Assembly (NCBI RefSeq): GCF_964355755.1
Contig: NC_092680.1
Location: 8,595,001 to 8,659,000 of the forward strand
Direction of reading: 5' to 3'
Length of the DNA stretch: 64,000 bases
Origin: Antedon mediterranea
Lineage: Eukaryota > Echinodermata > Crinoidea > Comatulida > Antedonidae
Made by a program: the position numbers and the translations under genes. Under the pieces are notes generated by a model. It was not told the DNA's origin, searched no databases, and saw nothing but the letters and a program-made list of their open reading frames with translations. Numbering within the stretch: the first letter of the stretch is position 1; the number at the start of each line of letters is the position of its first letter. Below, in pieces: positions 1 through 44,300 of this stretch.

Positions 1-3000
1 TCCAGCTGAACCGAGTAAGGTTGATGTTAGCCATGGGTCGACCGGTAGGGCGCAGTGGCTTGGCATGCCAGCCGCAGCGGCTGACACACCAGCTCGTAAC
101 GGATTCATCGGAAAATCTTGCTGAAGTTTAATAACCTGTACAGCTTCCATCTTCTCCTGTCGCCGCCATTTTGCTCTACGATTTTGAAACCATACCTATA
201 ACAATAAAATTCATGAAATATTTAATAACACAGTTATAATTTATAGTTAAAATTTCTGTTGCTTGCAAAATTGGTAAAAAAGAATGTTTAATTTATCTTA
301 TTTAAACTTATTATGTATGGGTATGATAAAAAACAAGGCCAACAGCCATTAAGTCGCATGCTACAATGCATAGTGATACCGGACCGACAGACAGACCAAC
401 AGACCGACCGACAGACAGACCGACAGACAGACCGACCGACCGACATAGTGAACTATACTGACCGAAATTACTGAACATGTTTAAAAATGTTTATATTTTT
501 TTAATTTACACGTGCGTAGCCTGTCACTTTTGACGAGCTCGTATAACGTAATTTCGAGTTGAAAAGTAAGTCAAGAAAACAGAAATCGGGCAAAAAGAGT
601 GCGCAATAACATTTAACGCGCAGTGCGCGCGCAAAAATATGCGCACTCATTGCAATTTTGTAAACGCTTAAAATTGCCTGAAACGTACTCTTATTTCATC
701 GAAAATAAATTTTGAAAATTTTAAGCGCGCGTACGCATGCGTTACATGCGCTACGCACGTAATTGTATTGCCATATGATGATTTATGCCCTGAAATTTAT
801 GAGTACCAAATTTTATTTAATTGTGATTCGTGGTTGTGAAGATATGATTACAAACGTGATTTCATTAAATCGTGCGTAGACCGCGTAATTTTTTATTGCG
901 CACCGTGAAAACATAACCACATCGATTCCTGGCCATAAGGAATATACTGTGAAAAATTGACCTAGCTAGATTAAACTGATATCAAGATCAGGTCAGAAAG
1001 CGATAAAACGCATAGTGATACCAGACCGACCGACCGACCGACATAGTGAACTATAGAGTCGCTTCCACGCAACTAAAAATGTAGCGAAAGAAAGTATTGC
1101 ATTAACATTGATTTACTGGTTAAAAATATGAAAAAAATAAGTTTACAAATGCATTATCTAAATTCAATATTTAAAACATTCATAAGGTAGAGTAGGAATT
1201 ATATTAAGTTTCTAAAATTGAACCAAACACTTACAGTATTTTACAAATAATTGCTTAAACACCATCATTGTTTAATAATGACAATGTCAGAAGGAAAATA
1301 GTAGTTTAATATATTTACAAACTACAGCCTATTATGCCTTAATTGACCAACTTGAAGTCCTTATTACATCTCATAAAGCAAATTATACTCGTTTTTCCCA
1401 ACTTATGTCGTCCATTAACAGAATATACTATATAATGAGTGGCATTATAGGCATGATTATAGGAACATTTTCTCTGATTATTCTCTGTAATGAGATCAAA
1501 CTATTCAGTGATGGTTCAAGTTGTTTTAATGAATGTTCATTAGGCACATTAAGCTAGGAACGCACTAAGGTTATAACCAAATTACTACGACGCACTAAAT
1601 GTTTGTTCAAAATCCCATTTTAGTTTGTTAGTATAATTAGGCCTAGTGACAATTTTTAGATTCTTGTCGTCATCATCATTCCAAACAAAGAGGAACGTTT
1701 ACTTTTTGAACAAACGCAGTTATTAAATGGAAATGAAATTTCCACAATATAATTTTGAAAGCATTTTATTGTTAATATTTGTATTTACATTAATAAACGA
1801 ATATGCATCAATCATGGATGTCTATATATCCCTAAATTGGATTGACTCGTGATAGACGAGTTATTAAGCGTTATTATTTTTATCACAAAGCACATGCCTT
1901 TATATGAAATTTTTACAGTAAAAATTGAACTACAGAAGCATAAAAATATCTTAACAATGTCTTAAATCTCAGCTAGAGGCAGGCATTATCAGATAATATT
2001 TGTGTGTATAACAGAAATCATGACGAAAAAATTATACAATATTGGGAAAACTGCAGACTTTTTTAGAATACCGATAGTTAGCTTTCAATCCTCAGAAAAT
2101 AAATTTAAAAAAAGTTTCATGTTAAAATGGATAGTTTTTTATATAGCATCTATAACATTGCTTTAGTCATCTGATAATGTTTGCCACACCGTTGTTTTCT
2201 TTTTTTCTCTTCTACAATATTTGTGTACAAAAAAAATAAACTGAAATTTGTTTACTTATAATAAATCAATAATGTTGCACAATAATGTGTTGTCTTCACA
2301 TCATTATTTTAAAGACAATTTAAGATGATCAAGTTTGATGGCACTTTAAATTCAATAATTTTTATGTGGGATTTAAAATAGTTTAGCGAATGAAGTCGAC
2401 AGTTCGTATATGCCTTCTCTTCTCAGTTCATTCTTTTTAAAAGTAATACTTTTTACGTAATTGAAACCTTAAGACGTATACTTTAGTATGCGAGTGAACT
2501 ATGTATTCGTTATTGGTGAAAGATTAAACAAGAAATATTTCTTACAAAAAACGCTGCTCGCTTATTGATAAATATTTTTTATTTCAAATGTTTTTGAATG
2601 TGTCATTTTATTGTCACATAATAGATAGTTATTTTACCTGAAAAAATGTAATTTAAAGCAACAAATACTTAAATTGTCTGTCAGACAATGGTTTTTGGGT
2701 TTCTTTTCATTTTTTATATGTGAATAAATATTACTTTTTTGTTACAGAAGTGAATACTCAATTTCTGTCACTTTAGTTAATTTTATTGCTAAGGTCAAAT
2801 CTGGGGGTCACTTCATCACCCTAGATATTTCAATTGTGAAGTATCCTATTACAAACACAAACTTTAATGGACTGTTTAGATAATAATTCAATGAATATCT
2901 GACACTGACAGTGAATATAGGGATTTGTAATTTTAGCATGACATGTCCTAATAGACTCTTTCCCAGCCGTTTTTTGGGTCTACTGTAGCAGCTGGAATCA

Positions 3001-4668
3001 ATAAATCATAGTGGAGTTTCCATTTTCACAAAACTGTCTGTCCTTAGAACTATAACTGCTGCATGCTTTAGCTTCTGATTGAGTAGTCCTAATGGGACGT
3101 AGCGGGCTAGAGCAGCAGCGTGAAAAATTATGATGGAAAAATAAAACTACGTTACCGTATCATGATACCCTTTTTTGTTTTTGTTAATTTAACTGAAACC
3201 TAAACATTCAACTTATTTTGGTCAGCATTCATCTACGTTTATTCGCCTGTCAAAATGATTTGACTATTTAAAATATTATGTAGGCCTATTAGTTCTTAAT
3301 TAATTACAATTTATTGATTACAGTTTTAATTGACGTTTATATACCTGAACTCTGACCTCTGGTAGGTTAACCCTTGATGCTAATTCTTCTCTACTGTATA
3401 CGTCTGGGTAATGTGATTTTTCAAAAGCTCTCTCAAGCTCATGAAGTTGAAATGTAGTAAATGTTGTCCGATTTCTTCGGTGTTTTTTCTTCTGTTTATC
3501 TGACATGTCGTCAACGTCGTCTTTGACGTGTAAATCGGAATCGTACTCGTCGGAGAGAACTGTGTCTTCAGAATGTTTTCGTGGCACAGGAAAGAGATGC
3601 TCATCTAGAACAAAATAAAAATGATGTATTGAAACAATAGTGTTTCTTGAAACCAATAAAATAAACAAAATAGAAAAGATAATAACAATAACACTAACAC
3701 TAATAATAACAATAATAATAACAATAATAATAATAATAATATAATAATAAAATTGGAAAAAAAAAACAACCAAAACCGTTTCCTCCGCCAGAGGGCAGAC
3801 AAGTTATTTAATGCGATTAATATATATTATTATAACATTTCAAATTAATTGATTAAATTTCAGTATATCACAGGGCGGTTTAGAAATAATGTTCATTGCC
3901 TGATGTGTTTATTATAAATTATATTATTATATTGTTTTCATTGCAGTAGTAAATAACGAAACTGCCATAATGAATAATGAATTAAACTGCAGCGTACGTC
4001 TAATCATAAAAGATATTGAAATAAAATATAATATTTCATTTTCATATCGTTTTATATTTCATATTTTCAATCTTATATCGATTATCGAAACATATGTTGT
4101 TCTAATATTCTTATACTGTAGGTTTGTTTGTTTCGTTATTTTTTCAAAATATTATTATTAATTTTAAAAAATGTGTTGGTAAGATTTTAAAAAATTTGAA
4201 AAAAAAATTAAAAACACTACAATGTTAAGGATCAAGGGAAAAAATGTTAATGAGTTGAGTACTTGAGTACAGTACTACAACACAATGTGGGTTTTTTTCA
4301 CCTAGACTAAAATACTCACAATAATAATGAAATTGATAATAAGGACATTAGTTTACACAAAGTGAATCAGTACCGTACATAAAGTCATAAAAGTTAACAT
4401 ACTAGAGGCCTAATAATTGTTAAAAGCAAATATCCTAATAAAATATTCTGATTTCTTTACAAACTAATCTAATAAATAGAATAGAATTACCTTCGTTTTG
4501 ATTATGGTCTGTAGCAGCTATTCGATCATCATCAACCAATTCAAATTCTCGGTTCGAATCTTCCGATTGCATTTGTTGGTCATTTACTGTTGTTTCTGGT
4601 AGGCCTAGAATAGCATCAATACTGTGACTGGGTTTAGCATCGCAACTTGCTGAGACCTTTGGCTTCAT
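1..4668 (-). CDS. rax: Rax/Rx retinal homeobox transcription factor, 3' end outside window
   Basis: Exons on the minus strand: 4668-4491, 3604-3345 and 195-1, the last running off the left edge. Splice phases fit (phase 1, then phase 0), giving at least 211 residues. Exon 1 carries the octapeptide HSIDAILGL, a repressor motif of paired-class factors. Exon 2 has an acidic stretch and then the homeodomain, opening [20 protein letters not shown]. Exon 3 resumes at [15 protein letters not shown]. The intron falls between Q46 and V47 of the homeodomain. Residue 50 is Gln (Q50 class). The sequence matches the Rx/Rax family almost residue for residue; the family acts in the nucleus in eye, forebrain and apical neurosecretory development. 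The C-terminal OAR motif must lie beyond position 1. Start ATG 4668 is chosen because a TATA-like box lies about 80 bp upstream and the octapeptide follows soon after. The tandem neighbour is hbn. Confidence 0.95.
196..3344 (-). other. rax intron 2 (3.1 kb)
   Basis: The intron splits the homeodomain codons at Q46/V47, with a GTATA donor at 3344 and a TATAG acceptor ending at 196. Apart from the GACC/GACA repeat region near 330-1065, I see only AT-rich unique-looking DNA. Confidence 0.85.
330..1065. repeat. Two GACC/GACA microsatellites in a shared repeat frame
   Basis: Positions 380-446 hold an interrupted (GACC/GACA)n tract and 1021-1044 a shorter (GACC)n tract. Both are preceded by GCATAGTGATACC and followed by GACATAGTGAACTATA, so they look like two copies of one interspersed element around a CG-rich segment (590-760) with several GCGCGC runs. 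The family is unidentified. Confidence 0.6.
3684..3752. repeat. (AAT/AAC)n simple repeat in rax intron 1
   Basis: A run of AAT and AAC triplets within the 886-bp first intron of rax. The long Ile/Val-rich reading frame crossing it on the minus strand is an artefact of this repeat. Confidence 0.85.
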
Positions 4669-4747
4669 TTCTAAGGCTTGTAATGGTCAAGTGTGTAAGT
4701 TGGGTGGTTATAGTTTCTGTCTTTCCGTTAAAATGGTTATAATAAAG

Positions 4748-4753
4748 TATATA
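4748..4753 (-). promoter_or_regulatory. Candidate TATA box of rax
   Basis: Read on the minus strand, the segment gives TTTATATAC about 80 bp upstream of the rax ATG (4668). This would put a start site near 4720 and a 5' UTR of roughly 50 bases. The assignment rests on position and sequence only. Confidence 0.4.
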
Positions 4754-4769
4754 AAGTAACCGTTGTTTC

Positions 4770-7700
4770 TTTTCCTCAGACCAAATATATAGCAACCGCT
4801 ATTCGTTGATAATCGATACTATATAATTACTAACTAGCAGTGGGCCTAGAGTTTGATAGCAAATTTAAGTAGTTTTATCTATTATTTATGTTAACTAAAA
4901 CGTATTAGTGCCGTAAATCCGTGTTGGTGATACGTTACCGTGAAACAATACAGTAATTGACACGACATCCAACTCCATCATGTGTTGTCGCAGCTGTGGG
5001 CGGAGCATTGGGTGATTGACAGAATGCCTGATTGACAGTCAATTAGGACCAAATTACATAAAGCAGACAAGTTAACCCGAATTAACACTGTATTGCTATC
5101 ATACAGATTCATCAACTCATAGAATTACCTTTAATTGTTTTCAAAACTATGAAAGTTATGTAAAGGGAAGAATATGGATACTATTTCACTGTAGGTGGTG
5201 GCTCCATAATATTCAAAGAGAATTATTTACTCGCTCACTCTAAATGTGCAAAGTCTTTTTGAATGATAAAGTATTAGAAAATACATATAAAGAAAGTTTA
5301 AATTTTTAAAGTTAATCTTTCTGCTAAAATTTATTATTTACTATTACTATAACATAGGCCTAATTACACAAATAAATGAGAAAGAGAGAAGGGCATGGCG
5401 GCAATAATTTCAGCGCTTTGTATTCTTTAGTTAATAATAATAATCGCTATAGAATATAACTATGATATTATATCAATAAATGTAGCTGCTTATTACCAAT
5501 GAATTCTTTAATACCATAGTTGACATACGTCTACTGTTTAATGCAATGACAATGATTTCTTCTCCTCGGATTGGGAATAGTAAACGCGGTTTTATTATGT
5601 TATTATTATTATGTCTAGTGTCTAGTAAATTACACCACATACTATATTTTATTCTAACGAATGTAAGATTTGAATTAGTTGCCTGATATAATAATTATAT
5701 GAACTGTACGATACGAGTGTGGGAGAAACATCAAACCGGGACAAAGAAGGTCAAATATACTTTAAGTTTCTGCAAAATTGATTTTAAAACCATGATTAAC
5801 ATAGTATTATGTTGAGTTGTGCAGGCAATATGAAAGGAGTACATACACAAGTATAGATAAATATTTGTAAAAATGAAGCGGTCATTTAATAACAACGAAT
5901 AATGAAGTTTATCTGAAAAATATTATTAAATTGTTTTACAGCAGCTTCCGTTATAGTTTTATTCTTGTTAGTAGACCTCATGACCTTAATTTGTACGCGC
6001 GTACATGAATTAAAAATACGTCGTATTAGCAAACACAATTTTTTGGTCTTATTAGTGTCATAAAAATACAACGAATTTGAAGCCTTGAGGTTCAATAAAT
6101 TACCAGAGAATCTTTCACAATATCGCATAGTATTGTAAAGATATCAATTAGGCTTTAAAGAGACCTAAATGTACATGATATTTCCATTTCATTTAGAAAG
6201 GTGAAAAATGCACCGTTTATTAGACTCCTTGTAAACTAAATGCTGCAATTATTTACGCTAATTTACAAGCGCTATTAATTTTCTATTGTTTGAGCATAAC
6301 CTAACACATGTGCTTCAAGATAATCATTAATATACTTATAGGCTAATGACTGTAATTTGTAAACTCAATGAGTTAACCTTCGTTTGTAAAACTTAATAAT
6401 TGGTCTTAAATATGATTTATTTTAGTGTAATGAGAGGAAAAAGAAAATTAATCACTTATTTTGTGAAAGAACTACAAATAATTATTCAAAATGATTTACC
6501 GGACGACCATCTACAAATTAGATTACTTTCTTAACTGAAGTGATGTTAGTGCAATTACTTCAACTTTAAACTTTTTTTTTTTAACAATAATGAGCTTGCT
6601 TTATTTGTATTAAACTAAGTTATAGACTTACATCCCAACTTCATCGGTTGAGAGATTGCAGAATTAAACTTTATGTGTATTTGGTTTTTCTTGTATATTG
6701 CTATTGGAATTGATTTTTACTAAATAAATTCAAAAAGGTAAGATAACAAAAATGAAAGCCTCGTCTCACAATAAATAAAACATAATTTTTGAATTTCCTA
6801 AGAAATTACCAATTGTAAAAGTTTTATTTTTAGTGCGCTGAAATATCGTACTAAACAATTATAACGAAATATTATTATTATTATTATCATTTTTGTATAA
6901 TACGGTACATATATAATACAATATCAATATCACCTCTCGGTGAATGGTTGTTGCGACTCAAAGTACAGTACAATAATAAAGACGAATCCAAGTACCCTTC
7001 TCGTAAATTGATTTGACTCAAACTACCAGTTAAATTGTCGCAATTAAAATACATTTTATTAATTACAGGCAGAGAACTTCCTGAACAAAGGTCAATAACT
7101 GAAGCGAAATACACGTAAAACATGTATTTAGCCTACAGCTGCCTGTTATATCGTAACAAAGTTAGTATTACACGAAACCATGAAGCCCTTCAGGAGAGGA
7201 TTGAGATATTTTGCATGAGAGGGGGAATCGGTATAAATACTGAAATACGTAATGGTATTTCTCTTTTAAGATTTTTTAATGGTTTTTAAATATTTTACAA
7301 ATATTTTAAACTTTGTTTTTATACGGTTTTAGATTTTTTTTTAAATTTTTATCATTGTTTTATATGTTGTTTTTTATACTGTTTTATTCATGAACCTTTT
7401 TTACTTGTTTTTATGTGATTTTGATCAAATGAATGAATGTAACATTAATATTATAACAACACATAAGTTATAATATTATTTATCGTGTGTGTTACGTCAC
7501 GTCAACGTGTGCGCACCGTGGGGTCGTACTCCCACCAAGGAAGGAGATTTTAGAACCTTTACTTGTTAAATAATATTGATCATCTCATTCCAGTAACTAA
7601 AATTAGGATATAAGCAATTAACATTGAATAGATATACACAGCAGATGGAATGCTAACGTATAGTTAGTGCGGCTTATATCGCATAAGGCACGTTAATAGT

Positions 7701-8430
7701 CAACCTATATGTATAGAGTTATTAGTCTTCCCGGCCCTGGTATAGATTATCTTGTTTCGGGAAACTTCATACATCACTTACTTGCTTGTTTACTTGTTTC
7801 CCGTACACTTTCGTCTACGGGATTGAGGCGAAGCACTCAGTGCTTAAAAGTCCCTCCTAACGAAAAAATCATATTCAATATAAGGTGAAAACTTCAGCGG
7901 GTGGTTGAACCATGCGACGTTAAGTTTTGCTTTGAACGAGTACATAAAACTACATCCGTAGGCAGAGCATTCCATAAGAGAGTAACTCTCACTTTGTTTT
8001 CGGCTTCATTTACAGAAAGCAAATGACGTTTAAGGCTGCTGTTAATCTGTATCTTAAAACCCCAGATCGCATTTTGCTATTGTTACAGGGTAAATGCAGT
8101 GTTTTATCTGTATAGGCCTAATATAACAGCAGATAGCATTATTGAGAATTGAAATCATTTTCTGGATCGCTGAAGAATACTTAATTAGGAGTACAAATAC
8201 CTTATAAGGTCAGTAATCAAAAATATTATCGGATGGTAATATCTCACTTTATGATAATTGAATACGTGTGAGCAGCATTGTCCAAGAGGATTGTACAACG
8301 CCCTCTCAGTTCTCAAAATAGATTTGTGTTAAACCTTGTTTCACAAAAATCTTGCTCATTGCAGACAATCATCAAACTGTTAAAACCATTTCACACAAGA
8401 CACTGCACATAAACCAATAATATTTTTTGA
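4770..8430. other. rax-hbn intergenic interval
   Basis: The interval is AT-rich, with no credible exon. Reading frames here are short, low in complexity and unlike known proteins. The proximal part (4750-5100) is the likely rax upstream region. The hbn poly(A) region lies at the right end. I recognise no repeat family in most of it. Confidence 0.6.
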
Positions 8431-8441
8431 TTTCATCATTA

Positions 8442-8447
8442 TTTATT
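8442..8447 (-). promoter_or_regulatory. Candidate hbn poly(A) signal
   Basis: AATAAA on the minus strand, about 235 bp downstream of the hbn stop codon, in an AT-rich 3' UTR. Confidence 0.45.
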
Positions 8448-8678
8448 TATACATCTTTTTTACAATAATAATAATAACTCTACATATATACAAATATTTA
8501 TAATCATTTATACATTGCACTTGTTACTTCCATTTTTAATGAATGGTTTTAAATAGCTGTCTTTAATTCGATGTATTATGATGTATTATCATTATCCCAA
8601 CCGTTATCCAAACCATGTTAAGTCTGAAATCAATCGAGTTTAGAGTGAGTTTTAATCTTACAATGTGTAACTTTAAAT

Positions 8679-10524
8679 CTATGTTAAAGAATGCTTTTCA
8701 TTACTTTCATGAACCGAAAATTGTTTACCAGCTTGTAATCTAAGTGCCTCAATACTTTGTCTTTTCATATGTACAGGATCATTTGGAAAAGCCAGTCTAT
8801 GGCCCATGTGTGAGTAAGGTACAATTGGTCCAACGAACGGTAATTGTTGGTATGGCCCGGCTGGGGCGAAAACTGCTGGGTGAGGTGCTACTGCGGTCAA
8901 TCCTGGAGGCCTAGGAAATCCATGACTAAAGTATGGTATGAACGGTTTTGCACTGCTGATTAAAGGATGGGTTTGCGCCTGCAGCCATGTAGAGTAACCA
9001 GTGGCGTAGTCCAACGGAGAGTTCATATCTGTTTTGCAGTCTGTGTTTGAACTTTCACGTCCAATAAATTTCTCCTTCTTCCTCCATTTTGCACGTCTGT
9101 TTTGAAACCACACCTAAAAGATATACAAAATAAATCATTATAGTTTGATCACCTATTATTTATAAATAGTAGCTAACGCTTTCTTTTAAGTGACAAATAA
9201 AATAGACTAGTAGTAGTCATGTAGATAAACAAGTTATACAATATTATTGATTACAGTAATTTAATCAACATAAGCAGTAAAAGTGAATTAAACTAATAAG
9301 ATAAATACAGCGATGAATAAATTACAGAACTATGTCAATCATTATTTGTCATTGAAAATAAATTTAGGTGTAAAATATCTTACACAGATTAAAACAAATT
9401 GAATGTAATTGAACAGACTACCAGTAAATGCATTTTGCCTGGTCAAATTTCATCCGAGGCTAATTGAATTAATCGTAAAACATTATCTACAACACTATAC
9501 TGTAGATTCAGCATAATTATTATACAAAAACAACATTTAATTTGCTATAATAACTAATATTATTTATCAGTATGATGAATGACATTTATAAGTAAAGATC
9601 ACAAAATAATGTTTTCTATCCGACTATCCGCAATGTAAGGTCAGAATTTTACCAGCATAATTTCTGTGTAAATTTAATGAAGACGGGCTTCTTAAGTCGT
9701 TCATATCCCTTTATGTAACCGTATTGAGTACAATATAATGCAAAAACTTAATAATACAATAGTATGTATAGACCAGAAATAATTCTTACCTGAACTCGTG
9801 ATTCGCTAAGATCGAGCTTAAGTGCTAGTTCTTCACGTGTGAATACATCTGGATACTGTGTCTTTTCGAACGCCATTTCTAATTGGTGAAGTTGGTACGT
9901 TGTAAATGTTGTTCGAGATCTGCGTACTTTACGAATCTTCGCCGATGGAATAGAAGCAATTGTCTGCTGTGTTAAATCATCTTCACCATCGATACTTTCT
10001 ACTTTAATGTGCGGTATGTCAATTTCTGTAATAAACAAAATTAACATAGAAATTAATTATACATTTACATAAAATACAAACTATAACAATTATTATTAAA
10101 ACATTTTGTTGAAAAGGTTCAATAGTAAGATCAATCGAAAAATAATGTTAATTCTCTATCTCATTTGTGTTTAAATAAAAAAATATCAACAATAATCAAA
10201 AATAATGTAAAATATAAAAATAAGACTTAAACTTTATATCAAAAATAATATTATTGCTATTAATATTATTAATATGAATTGTATAAAAATATCAAACAGT
10301 TTTAAATTACCTTTTTCGTCTTCACTTTCAGAACAACTTAAATGTGTCTCTTTCTTGACATCTTGTTTTGCCAGAGGTATTCGTGTAAGCGGCGGTGGTG
10401 GAATAGATGGCAGTTGTGGTTTCTCTTTAGATCCTAGTATAAAATCGATGGAATATGAAATCGGAGCCTGTGTTTCAAAACACATCTTCGATTTCATCAT
10501 AGGCCCAGCAACGACAGTCGACAT
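8679..10524 (-). CDS. hbn: Homeobrain paired-class homeobox transcription factor
   Basis: Exons on the minus strand: 10524-10311, 10025-9790 and 9113-8679 (with stop), giving 294 residues. Exon 1 carries an octapeptide-like YSIDFILG near residue 24. Exon 2 starts the homeodomain [20 protein letters not shown], with [15 protein letters not shown] and the helix-3 lead-in LDLSESRVQ. Exon 3 resumes at [15 protein letters not shown] and ends in a Pro/Ala/His-rich tail. The RRSRTTFTT start and [14 protein letters not shown] are characteristic of Drosophila-type homeobrain and distinguish it from ARX, ALX and UNCX. I see no OAR motif at the C terminus. Start ATG 10524 has A at -3 and lies downstream of a TATA box near 10626; the open frame from 10686 begins upstream of that box and was not used. 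Hbn proteins act in anterior neural patterning. Confidence 0.92.
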
Positions 10525-10621
10525 GTTCTTCGTTTCTTTAATAAATAAATAACTCCAGAAATGTTGCGATGTGACAACGATGCTGCTCAGTAGGTGAATG
10601 TGGAAAGTGAGTTGGCGCATG

Positions 10622-10664
10622 CTTATAAAGTCCGGTTTAAAAGCCAATATGACTAACAGCCAAT
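10622..10664 (-). promoter_or_regulatory. hbn core promoter: TATA box and two CCAAT elements
   Basis: On the minus strand CTTTATAAG (10630-10622) is a good TATA box about 100 bp upstream of the hbn ATG. Inverted CCAAT boxes (ATTGG) sit at 10648-10644 and 10664-10660. The spacing suits a start site near 10595. It is inferred from sequence and position. Confidence 0.55.
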
Positions 10665-11509
10665 CAGAGCGTTCTATTTCACTCAATGACTTAACGCATC
10701 AGCTAACACGTGTGAAATACAATTATCGTGTGAACCAATCTGTTAACGATTATCAAAGTGTTACGTAAATTAATTATATCATTGTTAACATTTTAACAAT
10801 GATTGAATTGAATTATGTAGGTATTATCATGTATGTACCAAAGAGGGTATTTAGTAGCTCAACGGATTTCCTATTTGTTATTTATTTGTTTTTGTAATAT
10901 TATAGGCTTGCATTTTATTTTAGTGTATTACTTTTAAATTCGAGAATACTTTTAAACATAATCGCTTGTCTATAAAAAATACAGCAAGTAAATAGGGTCT
11001 TTCTAAAATCAACAACCTCCATAAAAGACAACATCTCTAAATTCATAACAACGAGTATATATGCTATTTTTTATTTATTTTTGTAATTTTATAGGCCTAA
11101 ATGTAGGCCTATTTATTGTATTACTTTTTTTATTCCAGTATACATAATCGTTTGTGTATTTTTTTTAAATTCAGCAAATTAAAAAGGGATAATTCTAAAA
11201 TAATCAACATCCTTCATTAAAAGACCACATCTCTTAATTCATAACAATGAATAATCATTTATTGCGCTATCGAATAACTATTTTAGGCCTAAGTCAATTA
11301 GAAATAACACGTAGCTAGTTTTTTGTTTTAATTGCTTATTAAATTTATAAACAGATATTTTAATATATAATTTAAACTATATACAATTAAAATAATTGCA
11401 GATTGTTAGTCAGGTATTTACCATTAAAATGAAGTTGTAGTCTGTGTATATTTATTTCACCTATTTTAAAATATTAATTTCTGAAATGTTGTATGTGATG
11501 CGTGAAGTT

Positions 11510-32345: not shown

Positions 32346-32799
32346 ATACTAGGCCTAGTTAGTATTAAGTAGGCCCTGGAGGTGCATGGACTTTCGCACC
32401 ACACTCTCTTGAGTTACCCAATTTAAAAACATTCACCCGCTGCTCGGCAGGTGATGTTGAGAGACCGTAAAAAAAAAAGTTTTAGATGCGAAACTGCAGT
32501 AGCGCCTAGGCATAGTCTAGTAGTAGTTAGGCTAGTGTATATAGCATTAAAGGTCTAATTTTTATCAATCTGGTGATGATTGGGTCTGCGGGTAATTGGG
32601 TTTTAAAAATTGGCGGCCAGATCGTCTATCTTACTATCATCAGGGATCCAGTGAAGTCAGCCATTCACAAAGTCAGCCATTTGCAAAGTTGTTCCTTTCC
32701 AAAATCATTTAAACCAAACAAAATTTAAACACTCAATTTCAAAATTCAGGATGTGACGTGATAATATAATAATACCCAACCAGTTTAGTTTAATTCACT

Positions 32800-33178
32800 C
32801 CCTGCTTCTCAAGCCTCCAGAATTGATCGGACCAATAACAAGTTCTTGCGCTTTGTCGGCCCAACAGCCAACCTGCCTCCTATTGTTTCCCCGACATCTA
32901 GGAGAGCAAGATAGGACTTGCACTTCCTGTATAAATGTCTTACTTCTAAGTTTGATTGTGATCTTGTTTCGTTGTTTTATTTTAATGTTCCTGTTCGTAA
33001 TCTTCGTAGTAAACCCTTTCTTCATGTTAAATTTTCTCGTGTCAATGTTTGTAAAAATGGTATTTTCTGTAGACTCTCGTCATTGTACAATTCTTGTCTT
33101 TTAAAAAATAATTCTTTAGATATTTTTAACTGTAATTTTTCTCAATTTAAATGTATTATTAATGAAATTATTTAAATT
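32800..33178 (+). pseudogene. Decayed 3' end of a LINE reverse-transcriptase ORF
   Basis: In one frame the translation reads RRAR, a stop, then DLHFLYKCLTSKFDC, FYFNVPVRNLRSKP and SLYNS, ending at a stop near 33173. That pattern (R-DL-FLYK-L, NVP-RNLRS, YNS) is the usual C terminus of CR1/L2-like or RTE-like non-LTR polyproteins. The in-frame TAG at 32912 probably replaced a Gln codon. The rest of the element is missing and AT-rich tail sequence follows. Confidence 0.6.
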
Positions 33179-33320
33179 TTCTTTTTCATTTGTATATATT
33201 TATATTGGCTCATATTTTATAGTTTAGTTTTTATTTTCAACCTGTTATTGGTGTTTTACACTGTTGGTTTGATATAAAGAATAAATATAAAGAAAGTAAA
33301 TATAATTTACAAACATCTTA

Positions 33321-33613
33321 AGCCTGGTTTCCATAAAATCGCTACACCGTGTCGCCGACTGCTGTCGCCGACAGAGCGTAGCGATTCTATGGAAATGCTA
33401 GAATTTATCAGGGATCTAGTACGCGAGCGCTAAATATTCTTTGGTACACGCGTATACGACTCATCGCCGACAAAATCAGCAAAGTTGAACATGGTTGAAC
33501 TTTGCCGATTTGTCTGCGATGAATCGGGGAGACCTCCCCGATGCGCGTCGGCGACATGTGCGCGTGTAGCGATTTCAATGGAAACGGTGTAGCGATTTTA
33601 TGGAAACCAGGCT
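33321..33613. mobile_element. MITE with perfect 29-bp inverted ends and TTA duplication
   Basis: Positions 33321-33349 (AGCCTGGTTTCC...) are the exact reverse complement of 33585-33613. TTA is duplicated at 33318-33320 and 33614-33616, the PIF/Harbinger target pattern. The 293-bp interior is rich in CGCCGAC motifs and does not code. Confidence 0.8.
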
Positions 33614-33808
33614 TTACTATTTTTAAATAGCCATAATTTAATATTGGATTTCCCTGAATTAAAAAATTGTTTAAAATATAATATGCACACATAGTTAAAT
33701 ACTATAAATAAACAAAAATGTAATTTTCTAAAATTAGCACTTGCATAAAACGTATTTCTGAATTTGTAAAAATGATTGTAAGTTGTATTCTTCTATTGAA
33801 CCCGAATA

Positions 33809-33845
33809 GATCTGTCTTAATCTTAATCTTAATCTTAATCTTACT
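33809..33845. repeat. (TCTTAA)n simple repeat
   Basis: About five TCTTAA hexamers in tandem, upstream of the Bcl-2-like gene. Confidence 0.85.
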
Positions 33846-34448
33846 CAATAAATATGATTTATTTTAATCACAAATAAATACTATAATTTACACTTAAAGT
33901 ATTATTAATATAAAAATCAATTTTCCAAAGTAATTATTAAAATAACCTGCACCATCTAAACTGTAAACAATATGGGGTTTTTTTTTCTTTATTGTCCTGC
34001 TACTCCATTATATGCTAATAAGGTGATGTCATTTCTAAATATAGACATTATGTTTTTGTTACACTGTGTCTGTCGTATTGTAAACAAATAGCCATCACAA
34101 CTCACTAGAGTAACTACAATCAGAGCACAGTAAGTAGGTACATAGGTATTACACTATGCAACACTTAATAAATTCTTTGTTTTGCTTTTTAATGTTAAAA
34201 AAAAAATATTGTATTATACCATTTTAGCTAGAGTATTTTTGTATTGTTTTGTTTAATATTTATTTTTGTATGTAAGTTTTAACAACAGTGATAAGATCTT
34301 AATTTGTTTTAATTTTTCAAAGAAATTAATTTTCTTTTTTTATGTTTCAGATATGAAATAAAAAAGTCTTGTATCTCATCTCTCAGTGAAAAGAAAACGA
34401 AATCTGATTTTATTGAAACTTTCTTTGAAAAAAAAACATTTATTGAAC

Positions 34449-37400
34449 ATGAAGAAAAATAAACCAGAACCAATTTCAGCACCAACTGATGATCAATTAT
34501 TGAATGATGCATCAAACAAGACCACATCACCATCTGTTGTTAAAAGGAGTTCGCCAAAAGATTCTAACAATTCGTCTAAGGAATCGTCGCCTGTTAGTTT
34601 CGCTCGACGCAGAACAAACTCGTTAAGTTTAACGCCATTAGTAATTGAAGGTCATTTTAACGATGATCGAGGAGACCATGTAGACGGAGTAAAAAGTCAA
34701 CATTTTTTCCCTGATCAGAATGCAATTGGTGAGAAGTATAGTGAAGTGCAGAAGGAAGGGTTATTTCTATACCATGAGACTTTTTTAAAACCGGAGATGT
34801 CACGAAGGGGTATTCAGGAACCAGATTTGATAAAACAAGTTTATGAAAAGAATGTGCCGTAAGTTATATTTAAATTATTTAACTAGAACTACAATAAATG
34901 CCCAAATATTAATATGATTGAGATTGACATTACAGAAAATTATTTTCATCAGTTTTACAGTACCTTTGTGTAGCTGAAGATTACCATATACTACAAAACT
35001 ATGATTTTGGACCTCGGATAGATTCAATTATAATTATTCTAATAACAATTTTGCGTCTTCCCCAACCATACCAATGTCAGCTAAATTTTAACAGTCCATG
35101 TCTATTTTAAATTAAAACACATTTTTCTGCAACCCAGTGGATCGTTTTTATCATTTTATGAAATATTTAGCCCTCTTTAATCTATAATGCTGGATCTATT
35201 AACTACAGTTACTTGGTTACAAAATGATTAATGATGTCAGTATTTCCTAATTTACTTTTAGTACTTCCTGTGAATGTATTAATTATACTGTATATTATAC
35301 CAGCATTATATACTGTAAACATGAGTATTGATATAGTACAGAATTTAAATTTAATTATATAATTTAGTGAATTTGTAGCATTTAATACATCATGTGTGTA
35401 GGACTACCAAATTTCCAGGGCATATATATTTTGTTTCCTGTTTACCTTTTTCTAGAACATTTTACTGTCTGTTGAACTTGTTTTGTTTGTAAGGTCAATT
35501 CTTGTATAGACTTATTTAATGTTTCTTTGTAGTATTGTTTGGGTTTTTCCTTTGTTATATAAATACCGACATAGTAGTCTCAGTAAAATACAAGCCCAGA
35601 CATGTCATTGTATGTTTTGAAATTAACATTAACAATCGGGATGTACTGATGTTTATACAGTAGAATCCCTATTAAGGGAACACCTTTGGGACCGAACAAA
35701 ATGATGTCCTTATATACTATGGGGGTTTCTCAAAAGAGGGATTTACGCTGCAGTAAATCATAATAAATTGCAGTCGGTTTCCTTTATGCTTAGATCATAT
35801 TCTTGACTATCATCCTGTAGCTCTTGTTGCACTAAATAATTGTTATTTATTTAATTTATAATCAATAAAGAAAACTTTTGCCGACCCTAGCCATGCCAGT
35901 ATACCAATTTATATTAAAATTTGTACATTAGACCAGAGGTATACATCAGGTTCTAAATGTTGTTGCCAGATTTCAGTAAACTTTCATATTTCACGCCACG
36001 TTTAAATCCATGCGCAAACATGTCACATAAACACAGATTTTAATTTTTCGCTGTCAATCTTTATATTGGTATTCTTTATTTACGAAGTCCTTAGTTCATT
36101 CGGCAATCTACAGTACATCATTTAGTAAAGCATATTGTTCGTGTAAAATTGTTCGTTTGTGAAAGTATGTTGTTTTTTTTACATTAGTTCATTCGTTTGT
36201 GAAAGTAGGTTGTTCGTTTGTGATAGTACGTTGTTCGTTTGTGATAGTACGTTGTCTTTTTTACTTTGGTATTTTTGGAGGCAATTGCCTTCCATAGCCT
36301 AAAACAAGTAGTGACTTTACAGTTATCCTTCATTTTTCTAATACAGTAATGGTTTGGATAGTCCATCAGTAAAGACACCAGTAGGTTACAACAATCCTAA
36401 TTGGGCAAAAGCAGGGAAAGAGTTACGAATTATGGCAGATAAATTTGCTAGATCAGATGAAAGAGAAAAGGTCACGAAGAAAGCTACCAAGGTAACCACA
36501 TACAACTTTTTATTTAGTAATTTATGGATATCTGTATATAATACACTTAGCCAATAAGTAAAGAATTTACTTGGGTGGTTACTTATGATATTTTAATATC
36601 ATATTAAAAGTGCAGAACAAGGATCTCGATTCTGCCGAGTGTGGATAACCTAATTCAGGGGCGGTCGCAAGACTATTTGAATGGGGTTGCCCAAAGAGTC
36701 CAGATACAGTAAATATGCAAACTGCCGACATTGTGCACGGTTTTGGTGACTCTGGTGGTTAAATTGTAGGATCCAGTCTGTCAATTTACAAATATTCTCT
36801 TCCAGCCTTGGACTTCTATTAACCTTATGGATATTGCATCTGATGAAATGGGATCTAAATTTCAATTTAGTGGCAGAAAAAAACATTTAGTAAAAAATTA
36901 AGGGTGTTGCCCCGGCCACTAGGACAACACCCCTGCATCCGCCCCTGTAATTAGACATGTACTAAAACTAATTAAGTTTCTATAAACTGAGGCTTGAAAA
37001 GCACTCAACTGTTTACTTATTGTATTAATAAATGTTTTGATGTTAAAAATATTTGCTTGTTATTCTTTAGTATTCGCAGAGCAGTATTGAAACTTATGCT
37101 GAATACAGTGACTTACTGACGGAGCTCTTCCAATCAGGGGGTGTGACTTGCCACAGACTTGTAGTCCTATTCTTTTTCTGTAGTGATTTAACCATCATGG
37201 CCCTGGAACATAATTGTATAGATTATTTTGGACGCCTGGTAACTTGGACATATAGATTCATTCGTGATGGACTAAGTCAATGGATAGCTTCCAACGGTGG
37301 ATGGGTAAGAACATTAAATAATGGGACGAGGAAGAACCATGCCCAAGGCAAATATTAATTCTCAGAATAAAACTAAATACTGACATTGACAATACATTTT

Positions 37401-37533
37401 TAAATATAAATGTTCACTTATTTTTCAGAACGCAATTGTAGATACAACACGTATATACATCGACATAATCTTTAAGGTAGCGCTGATAGCTGTGGCTGGC
37501 GCAATCGTATATAGAGTGTTCATAGGGCGATGA
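34449..37533 (+). CDS. Multidomain Bcl-2 family protein, possibly Bak/Bax-like, tail-anchored
   Basis: Exons 34449-34858, 36347-36491, 37071-37304 and 37429-37533, with consistent phases, give 297 residues. Residues 1-100 form a Ser/Thr/Pro/Lys-rich extension absent from human BAK. Next come an alpha1-like helix (KEGLFLYHETFLKPEM), a BH3 region with GKELRIMADKFARS, a BH1 region SGGVTCHRLVVLFFF, a BH2 region with QWIASNGGW, and a C-terminal membrane anchor (ALIAVAGAIVYRVFIG). The anchor implies an outer-mitochondrial or ER membrane location and control of apoptosis. The layout and the WIAxxGGW motif resemble BAK most. BH1 is atypical: NWGR of the family reads TCHR here, and the BH3 GD is AD. 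The ATG at 34449 has A at -3. An acceptor-like site at 34350 suggests an upstream noncoding exon. Candidate poly(A) signals lie at 38931 and 39723. Whether it kills or protects cells cannot be read from the sequence. Confidence 0.85.
34859..36346 (+). other. Bcl-2-like gene intron 1 with repeats
   Basis: The intron holds a dispersed repeat near 35656-35745 (GTAGAATCCCTATTAAGGGA, a motif I associate with a common marine-invertebrate MITE) and the minisatellite at 36138-36258. The rest is AT-rich and featureless. Confidence 0.55.
36138..36258. repeat. Minisatellite, about 22-24-bp unit
   Basis: GTTCGTTTGTGAAAGTA or GTTCGTTTGTGATAGTA is repeated four times with a TTTTTTTACATTAGTTC interruption after the first unit. 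Confidence 0.8.
36656..36947. mobile_element. MITE in Bcl-2-like intron 2, CAGGGGCGG termini
   Basis: CAGGGGCGGTCGCAAGAC on the left and CATCCGCCCCTG on the right are inverted, and TAATT flanks both sides. The total is 292 bp. A related element lies nested at 44819-45104 in the UBL7 gene, sharing GCGGTCGCA, a GACTATTT-type stretch, GGGTTGCCCAA and AGAGTCCAG in opposite orientation. Confidence 0.65.
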
Positions 37534-40500
37534 TCAACATTCTGGTTATTTTACATGCTGCGTTGCTGCAATCATGATGATGCACTTATAAGTGTCATAT
37601 ACAGTGTCATCTTCATTGCTACTTCAACCATCCAGTACTTAAACATACCGAATAACGAAGGAAGCTCAAAAGATTTTTCTCCTGGTATGGTGCTTTTTAA
37701 GCTGCACAAGAATCTATGCAGTATTTCCATTTTTTTGTCTTTTTGTATTCAGTGACATTATATTAATATTTTGTGAAAGATGACTGGTTCCTTTTGTCCC
37801 TTCAAAACAAAGTCTTCTCTTGAGAGAAGAAGAGAACCACCGTCAAATCTCAGAGCTGCAGTTATGCAGAGATGTTAGGAAGCAACTTTTATTACCAAAG
37901 GAGGTCCACCACCAAGTGCTTGTCTTCAAAGTGCCTAGTACAATTTATAGAATACATTTCTATTTATTTTCATAGTGTACATTACTGTGTATATATTTAA
38001 GATAAGATTTATTTTTTATTTAAATTAAGATTACTGTAAAATAAGAAAAATGGTAAATCAATTACATTACTGTAAAATGTTTGTATACATGTTATCAGAT
38101 AAAAATGATTTGGTTCAGAATTTACATTGTTCATTGTATTAGACAGAAATTACAAAAAGAGTTTATCTGATTAGATATACTATAAATATCCTATTAAAAA
38201 AACCAACAATTTAAAAGAACAACATATGTGTGGGTGTATTTTCTTGTTCAGAATAATAACAGGAAAGTAAAGAATGACCTGGGTTAACCACTGAATTTAG
38301 TTCACAATACATACCAATATAGTTTGTATTCCTCCTATCTTGTATTGATACATATCTACCACTTAAGGAATGCACAAAGAAATGCAGCTTGTCTTATTTA
38401 GTCATCCTAGATGATGACTAAATATTTATTTCAAAAAATTACCATTGTTTATTTTTTACTCATCGAAACGACTTACCAATCAATTTTAATACATACATTT
38501 ATGTTTTATATTTTAATCTATCAGCTGTAGTTTACAGTAAGGGTGTATCCCTCAAAGGGTTGAGTCAATATTACTGTATCAGGCGCTGAGTCACTGAGCA
38601 CTGGTCACGCTTGACTTCTCGTCAAACAATTGATCCAAAGGTCTCGCTACGATATTGTAATAATCTCTCATAAATCAATTTCTTTCAAGGATATCTAGAG
38701 TATCCGTATGTTATTAATACGTAAGATTTTTATGAAAACAAACAAACATGATTTCAATATTAAACTTATTTTCAGCTCCTCTATGGTATTTTTTATTTTG
38801 ATCTGCATTTTAAAAAGATTTTAATTTTCAAAGCATTATTAAGTATTGTTTAGTTAAGTTAAACATGTTTAGTTTAATGTTACAATAGTCATTGATAGGA
38901 GTTGAGTTTTACAATAGTAAATTGTATATAAATAAACAGAATAGGACATGAATAAACATTTAAAGGCTTATACACTGGGGGATTTGTTTTTTGGAGAGAG
39001 AAGGGGAAGTGGAGGTTGTTGGTGGTAGGGGCGGATGCAATGGGCCCAGCTGGCCCCTCTAACTTTCACAAATTGTAATTCAAAATCCTGGATCCACCAC
39101 TGAGTAGGACTATCCCTTAAATGTATAGGCCTTTATAAAAGCTTAATTTACTGTAAAAATATGTAAATACTGTACGTATAAAACTATTTATTTTTAAATT
39201 TTAAGTGTTAGTAAATTAAGAAATTTCCTCTTTTAACACTGAATCCAAAATTTACAAGAGGACTTGATGTTAAACATTTATATTTAGTGCTGTTTTAATT
39301 TTCTTTTTTGAATACTGTACTAGTATCTGCAAATACTAATAACAAAATCTTATGGTCATAAACTTCTATCTACTAAGTTTTAGTTTGAAACTTGTCCATT
39401 CATTTATAAAAGGTAACATAATAATGGTAATATAAATGAACATACCATGTACATCAATACCCTGTCCTTTTGAAATTTGTTGTGTAATGATGTTACATTT
39501 TATGTATTTTATCAGGAAAAAAAAGATTATACAGGTGTATACCAACTATGCAAATTAGGGAGGAAATAATTGAGGTGGGCATTTTCATCTATTGTAAGGT
39601 GCTTCTTTTTTGTTTTATTTGTTATAAATGTTTGCAATATTTGTAAGTTAATTTCCTTGTTTAGAATGTGAATGGAATTTGATTGATGTTAAGATGTGGT
39701 AATAACAGTGCTAAAATTGCTAAATAAAATCATTTCAACTCATTTAATCAGTTTAGCTCCTAAAGATGAATTGCAAAATGTATTAATTTGACTAAAAAAT
39801 TCAATCTTTCAGATTTTAACTTATTTTTAATTATTATTAAGAAATGTCAATATTGTTGAAGTTTATGTTGAGCAATAAGGTAAAACATGAGTGGTATAAA
39901 AAAAGATGTTATAAGTTGAATGCTTGATCACGAGACAATCGGAATATGTAACTACAGTAAGAGGGAAAACCTCAACAACATATATTCATTTCACAGAAAA
40001 GTGTCCTGTCTTGAAATTCAATAGACTATTGGAGTTGTTGATCTAGCCTTCATCTTATAAAACTCAATATGCAAGCTAACCTAAGAATGGTGCTGTAAAT
40101 TAGCTATGCCTTTTCGTTGTTCAGTGGTGTTTTCATGTAAAGTGTTGCTAGACATCTTGATTTTGCATAATAAAATTGTTGAAAATAACCTCATTGTTTG
40201 TTTTTTTTTTCTGTCATAAATCACAATGCTTTTACGTTACGTTTTCTTTCCGACATCATGTCCAAAAGATTTGATTCGTTTGTTTTTCATAATCGTCAAT
40301 TCATTCTTTCAATTATGGAACCTGGGTGTATGCCATGCATTGCAAAAATTAGCAGGTTCTATGCTCATTCAAATACGAATAAGTTGCAATAGAGTAGATA
40401 CCATGCAACTTCCTGTTTTATAGATATTTCAGTCACCATTATAACAGATGGCCTTATGAATAGTCACTTACAAACCCGAACCCGAACCAGTGACGTAATG

Positions 40501-41348
40501 CCTATGAGTCTGGCTTGAGGGCCAGCAGCAGCGCAAACAAAAAAATTCAGCTAGGCTATAAATAGTAAAGCAAAATAATAGGAAAGGCCGGACATTAAAA
40601 ATAAACTTAAACAAAGTTCATTTCCAATAATGTGCTTTTATATGCGGTTCTACATTTCACCATGGATTAAAATGTATCCATGCTTTTACGCATGCGGAAC
40701 ACATCAGAATGCGTTGTTTCAGCGATGACTTCAAGGTTCCGCTACATCCTTTATATTTACTGATGTCGTAAGTGCCCCGCTGGAGCTGCCGTTAAAAGTA
40801 AACTGTTACAGCTAGGCCTGTGACTTTATACGGTAAATAAAGTAATCAACTATCAAAAGCGTAAATTCTCAAATATTAAAACGTTTTTTTAAATATAAAT
40901 ATGATATTATTCGTAAACAAAAACTGTCATGTCACTTATTTTTTATTGTATTGTCTAAACTTATTTTAAAAAATAAATAAAATATGTCAAAAAATCATGA
41001 AAAAGCCTAAAAACACAAGAATCCTAGCAATACAGGGCCCATTCGGACCCTGCGTTACACCACTGACATAAACGTTTAATAATACAACTGTAAAAATGAT
41101 GTACAGAATTAAATATATTTTAACATTTAAGTTTATTCAGGCCACAGAAAGCAGTGACTGCTCTCATCTTAAGAGATGGTCAGCTCATACCATATTCCAA
41201 GCATGTGTCTTGACTAGAACAAAGGATTTTTGTGACAACCCTGTCTCAACAATTGCATATACCTGTATAGAATTACATACGAGAACATCATTTTCATCAA
41301 TGCTATCAACATTTTGTTCATTCACATACAAATAAAAATCAGGTGTGA
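37534..41348. other. 3' flanks of the Bcl-2-like gene and UBL7 (convergent)
   Basis: The interval contains the 3' UTRs of the two convergent genes and AT-rich spacer. Candidate UBL7 poly(A) signal AATAAA is on the minus strand at 41137-41132, about 210 bp past its stop. A fragment of a GGGGCGGATGCA...GGATCCACCACTGA element lies near 39029-39105. I see no further gene. Confidence 0.55.
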
Positions 41349-44300
41349 CTATAATACTCGTTGAGAAATGATGAGATCAAGCGCCCCCTGCACTATCCCG
41401 TTACTGGCCTGCAACGCTCGTAGATTCTGGTCATCGTTAGGAAAACCCATGTCACGTAGTGTTTGCATTTGTTCCTGCAAGATAAAAATGTAAAACAGTC
41501 AACATACATTCAATCTACTTCTATTACTTTGTTCATCAAAAAAATAAAATCATAAAAGCACTAATCATTAATTTATATTTTAAATAAGCATAATTAGACC
41601 AACAAAAATTGCAATTTCCCTTCCTGGAAAAAAAAAATCAAATTTAAAATGCATTCTGAAAGTGAGGTTGCATAAAATGTGTCTCTTAATTTGTATATAT
41701 TGTGGGATTTTCCACAGGAAATTTGTAGTCAGATAAATATAGTTGACAGCTCATTTGCCCTATTTTCTAAACTAAACACTTTCAAAGAAACTTATAATAT
41801 ACCAATTTAAAATGCATTCTGAAAGTGAGGTTGCATAAAATGTGTCTCTTAATTTGTATATATTGTGGGATTTTCCACAGGAAATTTGTAGTCAGATAAA
41901 TATAGTTGACAGCTCATTTGCCCTATTTTCTAAACTAAACACTTTCAAAGAAACTTATAATATACCAATTTTTCACAATGCCCATTTTAGGTAATTATCT
42001 ATTAAGATTACTATATTCATAATGTTTATACTACAAATAGATTATTGTAAATTACTGTAAAAATTGGGGATTTTCCACCTGATAAATTATAGTAGTCAGA
42101 TTCTTATCTTTATATCAAAGTATTGTACATAAAAACATAAGATTTAAAAAATTCATATGTAGTTTTCTAAAATTTGGATTGGTGTGTGTGTGTGTGTGTG
42201 TGTGAAAATTGCATCCTAACATAACATCACATATTTCATTGTCTGAGCACAATACTTTATACTAAGAAGCCAAATAGTGAACCTTTCATTTTATGTAATA
42301 ATTGTTGAAGTGTTTATCATTTCATACAGACAGGCCTACTATATTGTTTAATCTCAAATGGGGAAAAAATCAACAAAAACTACTTTTAAGTCTTCTGCCT
42401 TTAACTGTCCATTCGAACGACTTGTATTTGCTGGTGAACTGGACACTGAAGCGGAAGCAGAGGCCTGCAATGCATGGGCCATAGCCTGAGTAAACATGTC
42501 AACAGTAATAGGCTGTAGACCTGATGAAGAGGAGGTTGTGTTTTGGGTTGTAGCCCCTGTTGATGTACTAGCTGCTGCTCCCTGCAAAAATACAATATAA
42601 TCATATTAAAAAAATAATATTACATATTCCCTATTTATTCAGAATTGTACAGTATATATTATTATATGCGTTAATAATTACAGATTAGTTTTAAATTAAG
42701 TTTCTAAATTAAAACAAAACAAACAAGCAAACTGTAAAGATTATAAAACTAAAGTAACGAACAAATGTGCGCTGTTGCTAACATCACAGTTTTATAATGC
42801 GGTAACAACGGTGAGAACGATAATGATTTTGTTATATAAATATGATTATGTTGACGTCAACAGGTTGGGGCCTAAACAGTGGTGGCGCCAGCGGGGGGGC
42901 TACGGGGGCTCTAGCCCCCTCGTCGGGGAGCCTAGCCCCCCCGTCGGGGAACACGGGTACTTTTTGTCGGGGAATATAATATACAGTAAAAAATGTTCGC
43001 GTTCACTTCATATAGCTTCAGCGCCTAGAAAACCACGTTCCATTGACCTTGAGAGTACGTCAGAGGGCTATTATGCACTTTTATGCATTCATCATTTATT
43101 GCCAGCGATCTAACTTACTACTAAACATTAGCTAGGTACGCACTTGTCTGGCGGTATCCCTTTGTACGAATTGTTCAACGTTGGGTCAACACGCGTGATA
43201 TCAAGTTCCATCCAGGGACCAAAATGTGTAATGTAGTTATTTTCCAGGCGAAGTTTACCGACGGTTACCGAAGGGAACACGGGTACTTTTTGTCGGGGAA
43301 TAAATTATAATATACAGTAAAAAGCGTTCGCGTTCACTTCGTAGCTAGCTTCAGCGCCTAGAAAACCGCGACGTTTCATTGACCGTGAGAGTACGTCAGA
43401 GTGATATTATGCACTTTATATGCATTCATTATTGCCAGCGATCTAACTTACTCCTAAACAATAGCTAGGTTCGCACTTGTCTGTCGGTATCCCTTTGTAC
43501 GAATCGTTCAACGTTGGGTCGAGACGCGTGATATCATGTTCCATCCAGGGACCAAAATGTGTACTGTAGTTATTTTCCAGGCGAAGTTTACTGACGGTTA
43601 CGTCGTGTACTGCGTCGACGTACGCTACACTACAGCAGCAAAAACGAATTATGTTAATTGTTCGTATGTTCACCAATTTTTTAATTTACAAGTAACCTTC
43701 TTTACCGTGGGGCACCTAAAATAAATTTTTCATCCATTACTAAACAAAAAAACATGCCATTTTCGCTTAGCCAACATCTTATTATAGCTAAGTTATTACA
43801 TTTTCAATGTCCTGTATGTCATGAATTTCTCACCACTCGGAAGTCCAGATGGTACGCACGCATACACTTGGGAGGAATAAACTTATTTCCATGACTGAAA
43901 AAGGTCTACGCTTGCGTTTTTTAAGCCTCTAGGCCTGATGTTTCCAAAGTATAAAATGCTATTTTTTGAAGACCTGCAGCTCTAGTTTTAAACAGTTTCT
44001 TAGCTCAGCCCCAACAATAAAGCTGGTCATATTTCGAAGTACAAGAAGTGCATTTTCCGGGACCTAACATCTCTATTTTTCAAACATTTCTTAGCTCAGT
44101 CACAACCATGATAGGGACTTATATATTTTGTTTCATGTTTTGAAGTATAATAAGTTCAATTTCCGGGACCTCCAACTCTATTTTTCTAAATTTTCTTTGA
44201 ACTTTTATTTTTTAAATTGAAAAATATGGATTGAAACAGTCATCGCGCATCGTTTTTTTGCACGCAGTATTTTATTTATGCATTATAAAAAATGGAAAAA

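Follow-up and report, generated by a model that had tools for sequence, protein, structure and literature searches.

This report concerns a 64,000-nucleotide stretch of the genome of the crinoid Antedon mediterranea (hereafter the window, C11:8595001-8659000 on contig NC_092680.1, here called C11, with window position 1 at C11:8595001), in which two paired-class homeobox genes, hbn and rx, lie one behind the other near the left end, and the flanking sequence to its left, where a third such gene, otp, is found. These are the three genes after which the hbn-rx-otp (HRO) homeobox cluster is named, and the assembly in which they sit amounts to 354 Mb in 18 contigs, 11 of which span 22-41 Mb. The models of hbn and rx are listed here in window positions; coordinates elsewhere are contig positions unless the window is named.

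10311 to 10524, minus strand: hbn exon 1, from the ATG, with an open frame and a GT donor
9790 to 10025, minus strand: hbn exon 2, the homeodomain as far as R-V-Q
8679 to 9113, minus strand: hbn exon 3, from the end of the homeodomain to the stop
4669 to 8678, no strand: the 4.0 kb between hbn and rx
4491 to 4668, minus strand: rx exon 1, with the start ATG
3345 to 3604, minus strand: rx exon 2, the homeodomain as far as R-V-Q
1 to 195, minus strand: rx exon 3, the part within the window; the exon extends left to C11:8594731, 270 bases past the window edge
C11:8594779-8594829, minus strand: OAR motif of rx, outside the window, found with Pfam

Each gene has three coding exons, with products of 294 (hbn) and 300 (rx) amino acids; all four introns are GT-AG, each spliced frame reads through uninterrupted between its ATG and its stop, and the hbn stop lies 4,011 bases from the rx ATG. 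The homeodomain is interrupted by an intron at the identical place in both genes, before V-W-F, and the two homeodomains are therefore complete only after splicing; read in that sense, the models bear out an earlier note made from the letters of the window, which had described two complete paired-class homeodomains on the same (minus) strand, 4.0 kb apart. Pfam scores them at E = 8.5e-25 (hbn) and 7.3e-24 (rx), and reports no homeodomain match in the gap between the genes, where frames of up to 85 amino acids were inspected by eye only. The features of the RAX family that rx displays are an octapeptide recognized by eye, an Rx-type homeodomain and an OAR motif that barely passes Pfam (20.3 bits against a cut-off of 20.1). 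The N-terminal motifs, HSIDAILGL in rx exon 1 and YSIDFILGS in hbn exon 1, were picked out by eye, and I take both to be octapeptide-like; similarly, an OAR-like stretch can be seen by eye in hbn exon 3, but Pfam reports no OAR there.

The earlier note had predicted that otp would lie left of position 1, and that is where its homeodomain exon and its OAR-bearing last exon were located, 50-41 kb left of the window and on the strand opposite to rx and hbn:

C11:8544912-8545165, plus strand: otp homeodomain exon, with the Pfam homeodomain match at C11:8545031
C11:8552983-8553525, plus strand: otp last exon, with an OAR motif at 8553442-8553498 (32.9 bits)

An Otp-type homeodomain and an OAR motif are thus both present, and one of the two outcomes that the note had named as contrary to its claim, an otp on another chromosome with signs of a secondary rax-hbn neighbourhood, did not appear. 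Where the note had claimed at least the hbn-rx part of the cluster, the whole trio is here within about 61 kb. From left to right the contig carries otp (+), rx (-) and hbn (-), with rx between the other two, otp and rx tail to tail across a gap of 41.2 kb, and hbn upstream of rx; the stretch that begins with the otp homeodomain exon and ends at the hbn ATG measures 60.6 kb, and none of the other homeodomain matches found by a genome-wide Pfam search (104 in total) intervenes between otp and hbn. The 138 kb that hold all three genes (C11:8521001-8659000) contain not a single N, which speaks against a scaffolding misjoin but says nothing about the contig's own assembly. Random placement of three named genes of this genome within 60.6 kb of one another has a probability of about 9e-8, and the chance clustering of any trio drawn from an assumed 25 PRD genes one of about 2e-4. 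The hbn, rx and otp orthologues are all present on one chromosome as tens-of-kb neighbours among homeobox genes. The otp-rx gap also holds a gene of another kind:

C11:8571541-8573662, plus strand: Toll-like-receptor-like gene between otp and rx, two open frames, with leucine-rich repeats (92.5 bits) and a TIR domain (82.8 bits)

Next comes a frame that encodes a reverse-transcriptase zinc finger (35.9 bits).

The family names rest on homeodomain comparisons in which 61 of the 104 matches were read, mostly those stopping near position 46, those of the Hox cluster and all of those on C11, and on trees of 46 homeodomain columns whose references are provisional sequences except for aristaless and ALX4, taken from a PDB search; the 22-row and 32-row sets were hand-picked and omit other rows of the 41-row set. 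Against these provisional references, otp is identical to human OTP at 42 of 46 positions, rx to human RAX at 43 of 46 and hbn to Drosophila hbn at 40 of 46, and the trees agree with the Rx and Hbn identities that the earlier note had read from diagnostic residues. In the 41-row tree, otp joins OTP with support of 98/82, rx joins RAX with 100/97 and hbn joins Drosophila hbn with 96/85, the rx pair being sister to the hbn pair (90/82); the corresponding values in the 32-row tree are 99/94 (otp), 100/98 (rx) and 95/80 (hbn), and in the 22-row tree 100/99 and 97/97 (otp, rx) and 91/73 (hbn), the last unstarred. The second gene of the window therefore groups with hbn rather than with Arx, Alx or Rx in all three trees, each time with a single provisional hbn reference, and the note's other contrary outcome did not appear either. 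The approximately unbiased (AU) test on the 22-row set rejects hbn with ARX, only just (p 0.046), and hbn with rx (p 0.021), and a clade uniting all three HRO families was in that set neither recovered nor rejected (p 0.43). No second copies were seen among the best-scoring genome-wide matches to the homeodomain exons (32 for hbn, 29 for rx and 26 for otp, self included), in which the closest other scored match was rx for hbn (68% identity), an Alx-like gene for rx (69%) and an Otx-like gene for otp (66%). When the hbn and otp homeodomains were used as PDB queries, aristaless, Alx4, Phox2b and similar proteins came out at the top, and an Rx, Otp or Hbn chain was absent from the best 60 of 134 matches and from 42 of 42, so solved structures were not used for naming.

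The HRO cluster itself is well known, and the published comparisons used here come from excerpts of the papers cited. Mazza et al. (2010; PMC2938728) described the cluster as whole in Nematostella, in four insects and in Lottia, and it has since been reported in spiders, where it is reordered, and in a tick and a scorpion (PMC10726417), in a centipede (Chipman, 2014; PMC4244043, which names insects, cnidarians and molluscs as carriers) and in the snail Biomphalaria glabrata (PMC8848322). In the excerpted text of Mazza et al., the full cluster was not found in deuterostomes and the state of the deuterostome ancestor was left open, with echinoderm and hemichordate assemblies expected to reveal its extent there (PMC2938728); another paper states that the cluster is detected in deuterostomes too, its excerpt naming none (PMC7566022). 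The partial deuterostome clusters are those of the sea urchin Strongylocentrotus purpuratus, with hbn and rx on one strand about 22 kb apart and, in the 2010 draft, otp on a separate scaffold at least 193 kb from rx, and of amphioxus, where about 162 kb separate otp from rx on the same scaffold, chordates being without hbn (PMC2938728). None of the titles and abstract starts in the open-access literature searched announces all three genes together in an echinoderm or a hemichordate, though such a description may already have been published.

Set against these examples, the crinoid locus has the same genes in the same otp-rx-hbn order as Nematostella, Drosophila, the honeybee and the flour beetle. 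The gene that stands alone on its strand is hbn in Nematostella, where otp is co-oriented with rx, and otp here, where rx is co-oriented with hbn. The span is comparable to that of Nematostella (34 kb) and of insects (in Drosophila the two gaps measure about 17 and 21 kb; PMC2938728), and the differences lie in the 41 kb otp-rx gap with its Toll-like-receptor-like gene and in the host being a deuterostome. An interior free of non-homeobox genes, true of Nematostella and optional for the cluster, is not found here, and the mosquito cluster likewise contains other genes (PMC2938728). As in the sea urchin, hbn and rx are linked on one strand, but they are 4.0 kb apart rather than about 22 kb, and otp is 41 kb from rx rather than on another scaffold.

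The Hox genes of the same genome look like those of an echinoderm and, more narrowly, of a crinoid. An evx-like gene and 12 Hox-type homeodomains occupy a 412 kb block (C2:7793581-8206132), in which three 11/13-type posterior genes adjoin evx, with 11/13b and 11/13c face to face. By signatures that I take to be diagnostic, the order is 11/13c (+), 11/13b (-), then 11/13a, 9/10, 8, 7, 6, 5, 4, 3, 2 and 1 (all +). The face-to-face arrangement of 11/13b and 11/13c has been published for the feather star A. japonica and is the same here, with the difference that these two genes lie 47 and 68 kb from 11/13a in this genome and more than 360 kb from it in A. japonica. Two detached posterior-type homeodomains, at C2:8834273 (34 of 44 positions shared with 11/13b) and C8:11079703 (29 of 44), look, from their sequences, like the echinoderm 11/13d and 11/13e. 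In both, the match breaks off near homeodomain position 45, which would fit an intron there, and the one at C2:8834273 shares its chromosome with the Hox cluster, some 0.63 Mb away from the end marked by Hox1. Under these signature-based names, the crinoid features found are thus ten ordered Hox genes, 11/13b and 11/13c face to face, and detached 11/13d and e; the eleven large contigs also fit the chromosome number of Antedon. Judged in this way, a host outside the echinoderms, for example a lophotrochozoan, a group already known to have the cluster, would be very improbable; a COX1 search for a mitochondrial contig found nothing. In the excerpt of Szabo and Ferrier (2018; PMC6307216), 11/13d and e are present in all echinoderm classes with no clear hemichordate example, linkage data from crinoids are called essential for these two genes, and crinoids are the sister group to all other living echinoderms.

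The linkage may also extend beyond the trio. Isl is described as consistently linked to HRO (PMC10726417), and here Isl, LIM exons included, shares C11 with otp, at a distance of about 5 Mb. In the oyster a set of PRD/LIM genes sits on one scaffold; here much the same set is split, with otp, rx, hbn and Isl on C11 and Otx, Vsx and probable Prop and Gsc on C10, which suggests a single ancestral chromosome with the PRD/LIM group that was split into C10 and C11. The C10 paired-type genes read (at 82287, 3723858, 16449580 and 19625385) are Otx (100/95 in the 41-row tree and 99/99 in the 32-row set), Vsx (100/99 in both), a probable Prop, placed by sequence with 99/90 in the 41-row tree but 93/65 in the 32-row set, and a probable Gsc at C10:82287. 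This last gene groups with GSC (96/92, 32-row set) and finds goosecoid second in a PDB search, 0.4 bits below aristaless, although by identity the provisional DMBX1 reference is nearest (30 of 46) and that of GSC shares 28 of 46, so that the sequence makes the name probable. The chance that these four C10 genes would be the oyster's other four, among 20 other paired-type tree loci, is about 2e-4, a figure that holds if the names are right and the seven unread C10 homeodomain matches include no paired-type gene. Alx-like genes lie apart from these on C7, while C5 and C6 carry Arx/aristaless-like exons; the match at C5:21763292, which contains a stop, was left out of the tree. Two side observations belong with these loci: a pair of near-identical, diverged paired-type homeodomain exons 12 kb apart on the same strand (C7:28975243 and C7:28987087), and a further paired-type homeodomain at C11:13219225 with an OAR motif 2.1 kb downstream.

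Taking all of this together, I give a probability of about 0.9 to the reading that the locus is a complete HRO cluster whose linkage was inherited from the cnidarian-bilaterian ancestor and retained in a crinoid echinoderm; the common descent of the otp-rx-hbn linkage is what I infer from it, and the locus is a new complete example of an already known cluster, in a lineage for which no full example was found in the literature searched. Several points weigh on the other side. The 41 kb between otp and rx contain the Toll-like-receptor-like gene and the retroelement fragment, and no first coding exon could be recognized for otp, either by eye in C11:8541001-8544912 or among frames of at least 75 amino acids in the 20 kb further left. 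The order here is unlike that of the mosquito, Lottia and spiders, and since it varies among those lineages it is not a fixed character. Sequence support for the hbn grouping is moderate, with mostly provisional references and only 46 columns, and the AU test on the 22-row set does not reject hbn with Alx (p 0.117). Isl is weak evidence because it is 5 Mb away on a contig that makes up 6% of the genome, and the assignment to phylum rests on Hox signatures.

Why the three genes have stayed together is a separate question. The products of otp, rx and hbn are homeodomain transcription factors of the PRD class, which by homology would help to pattern the anterior neuroectoderm and the larval apical organ. 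In the sea urchin, serotonergic neurons of the anterior neuroectoderm require Hbn (PMC4839626) and the larval apical organ requires Rx (PMC10465340), and Mazza et al. described nested anterior territories for rx, hbn and otp (PMC2938728). Shared or nested anterior regulation, through enhancers or a contact domain, might then hold the trio together, and as a cause of persistence I would put it about even with plain inertia. That second explanation, in which the genes have simply gone unseparated since their tandem duplication and share no regulation, is a serious contender, perhaps slightly short of an even bet: the otp-rx gap is 41 kb with a foreign gene inside, order and orientation vary across lineages, and the other PRD genes linked in the oyster sit on a different chromosome here, whereas a trio kept in cnidarians, arthropods, a limpet and this genome has lasted long for unconstrained neighbours.

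Much less credible is a secondary otp-rx link, with otp separated from rx-hbn in early deuterostomes and rejoined in this lineage. The separate otp scaffold of the 2010 sea urchin draft (PMC2938728) and the orientation of otp relative to rx, which differs from Nematostella, would fit such a history; the gene order, however, matches the cnidarian and several insects, a break in urchins is a likelier event than the coming together of three genes, and in amphioxus a single scaffold still carries both otp and rx (PMC2938728), all of which make a rejoining very improbable. Least probable of all is that the second gene is a diverged Arx, Alx or Rx paralogue instead of hbn, for although its homeodomain matches the provisional human ARX at 35 of 46 positions, near the 40 of 46 for Drosophila hbn, and its union with Alx stands unrejected, it groups with hbn in every tree, separate Alx-like and Arx/aristaless-like loci exist elsewhere in the genome, and its union with ARX (narrowly) and with rx is rejected.

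A Pfam scan of 13 selected frames in the window outside hbn and rx gave the following, all to the right of hbn:

window 37 kb: Bcl-2 family protein exons
window 54 kb: START-domain protein exons
window 59.5-60.5 kb: RIO kinase exons

The genome-wide Pfam search found no homeodomain match in the window besides hbn and rx, and to the left of otp no convincing gene was seen by eye in C11:8521001-8541000. An unrelated observation is the abundance of the palindromic octamer TAGGCCTA, with 40 sites in the 64 kb window (1638-62526) where 100 shuffles gave a mean of 0.50 and a maximum of 3, and 76 copies in the 138 kb against about 1.1 expected from base composition, a 67-fold excess; variants differing in one end base are enriched at most about 12-fold. 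The octamer is missing from window positions 32358-50027, and since its flanks have nothing in common, this is no ordinary repeat family.

Returning to the cluster, a complete example in a crinoid, sister to the other living echinoderms, argues that the deuterostome ancestor had all three genes together. A fuller scenario can be offered only tentatively, as one that is probably wrong in some part: the deuterostome ancestor would have had the full otp-rx-hbn cluster, crinoids would keep the order seen in the anemone and in insects, chordates and sea urchins would have broken it independently, the PRD/LIM mega-cluster would be kept as two chromosome-level halves, and shared anterior enhancers would hold the trio together. 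The crinoid cluster thus bears on a point left explicitly open, namely the HRO content of the deuterostome ancestor, and it lets one ask whether the breakage of the cluster in chordates, and apparently in sea urchins, accompanies a changed control of anterior neural patterning.

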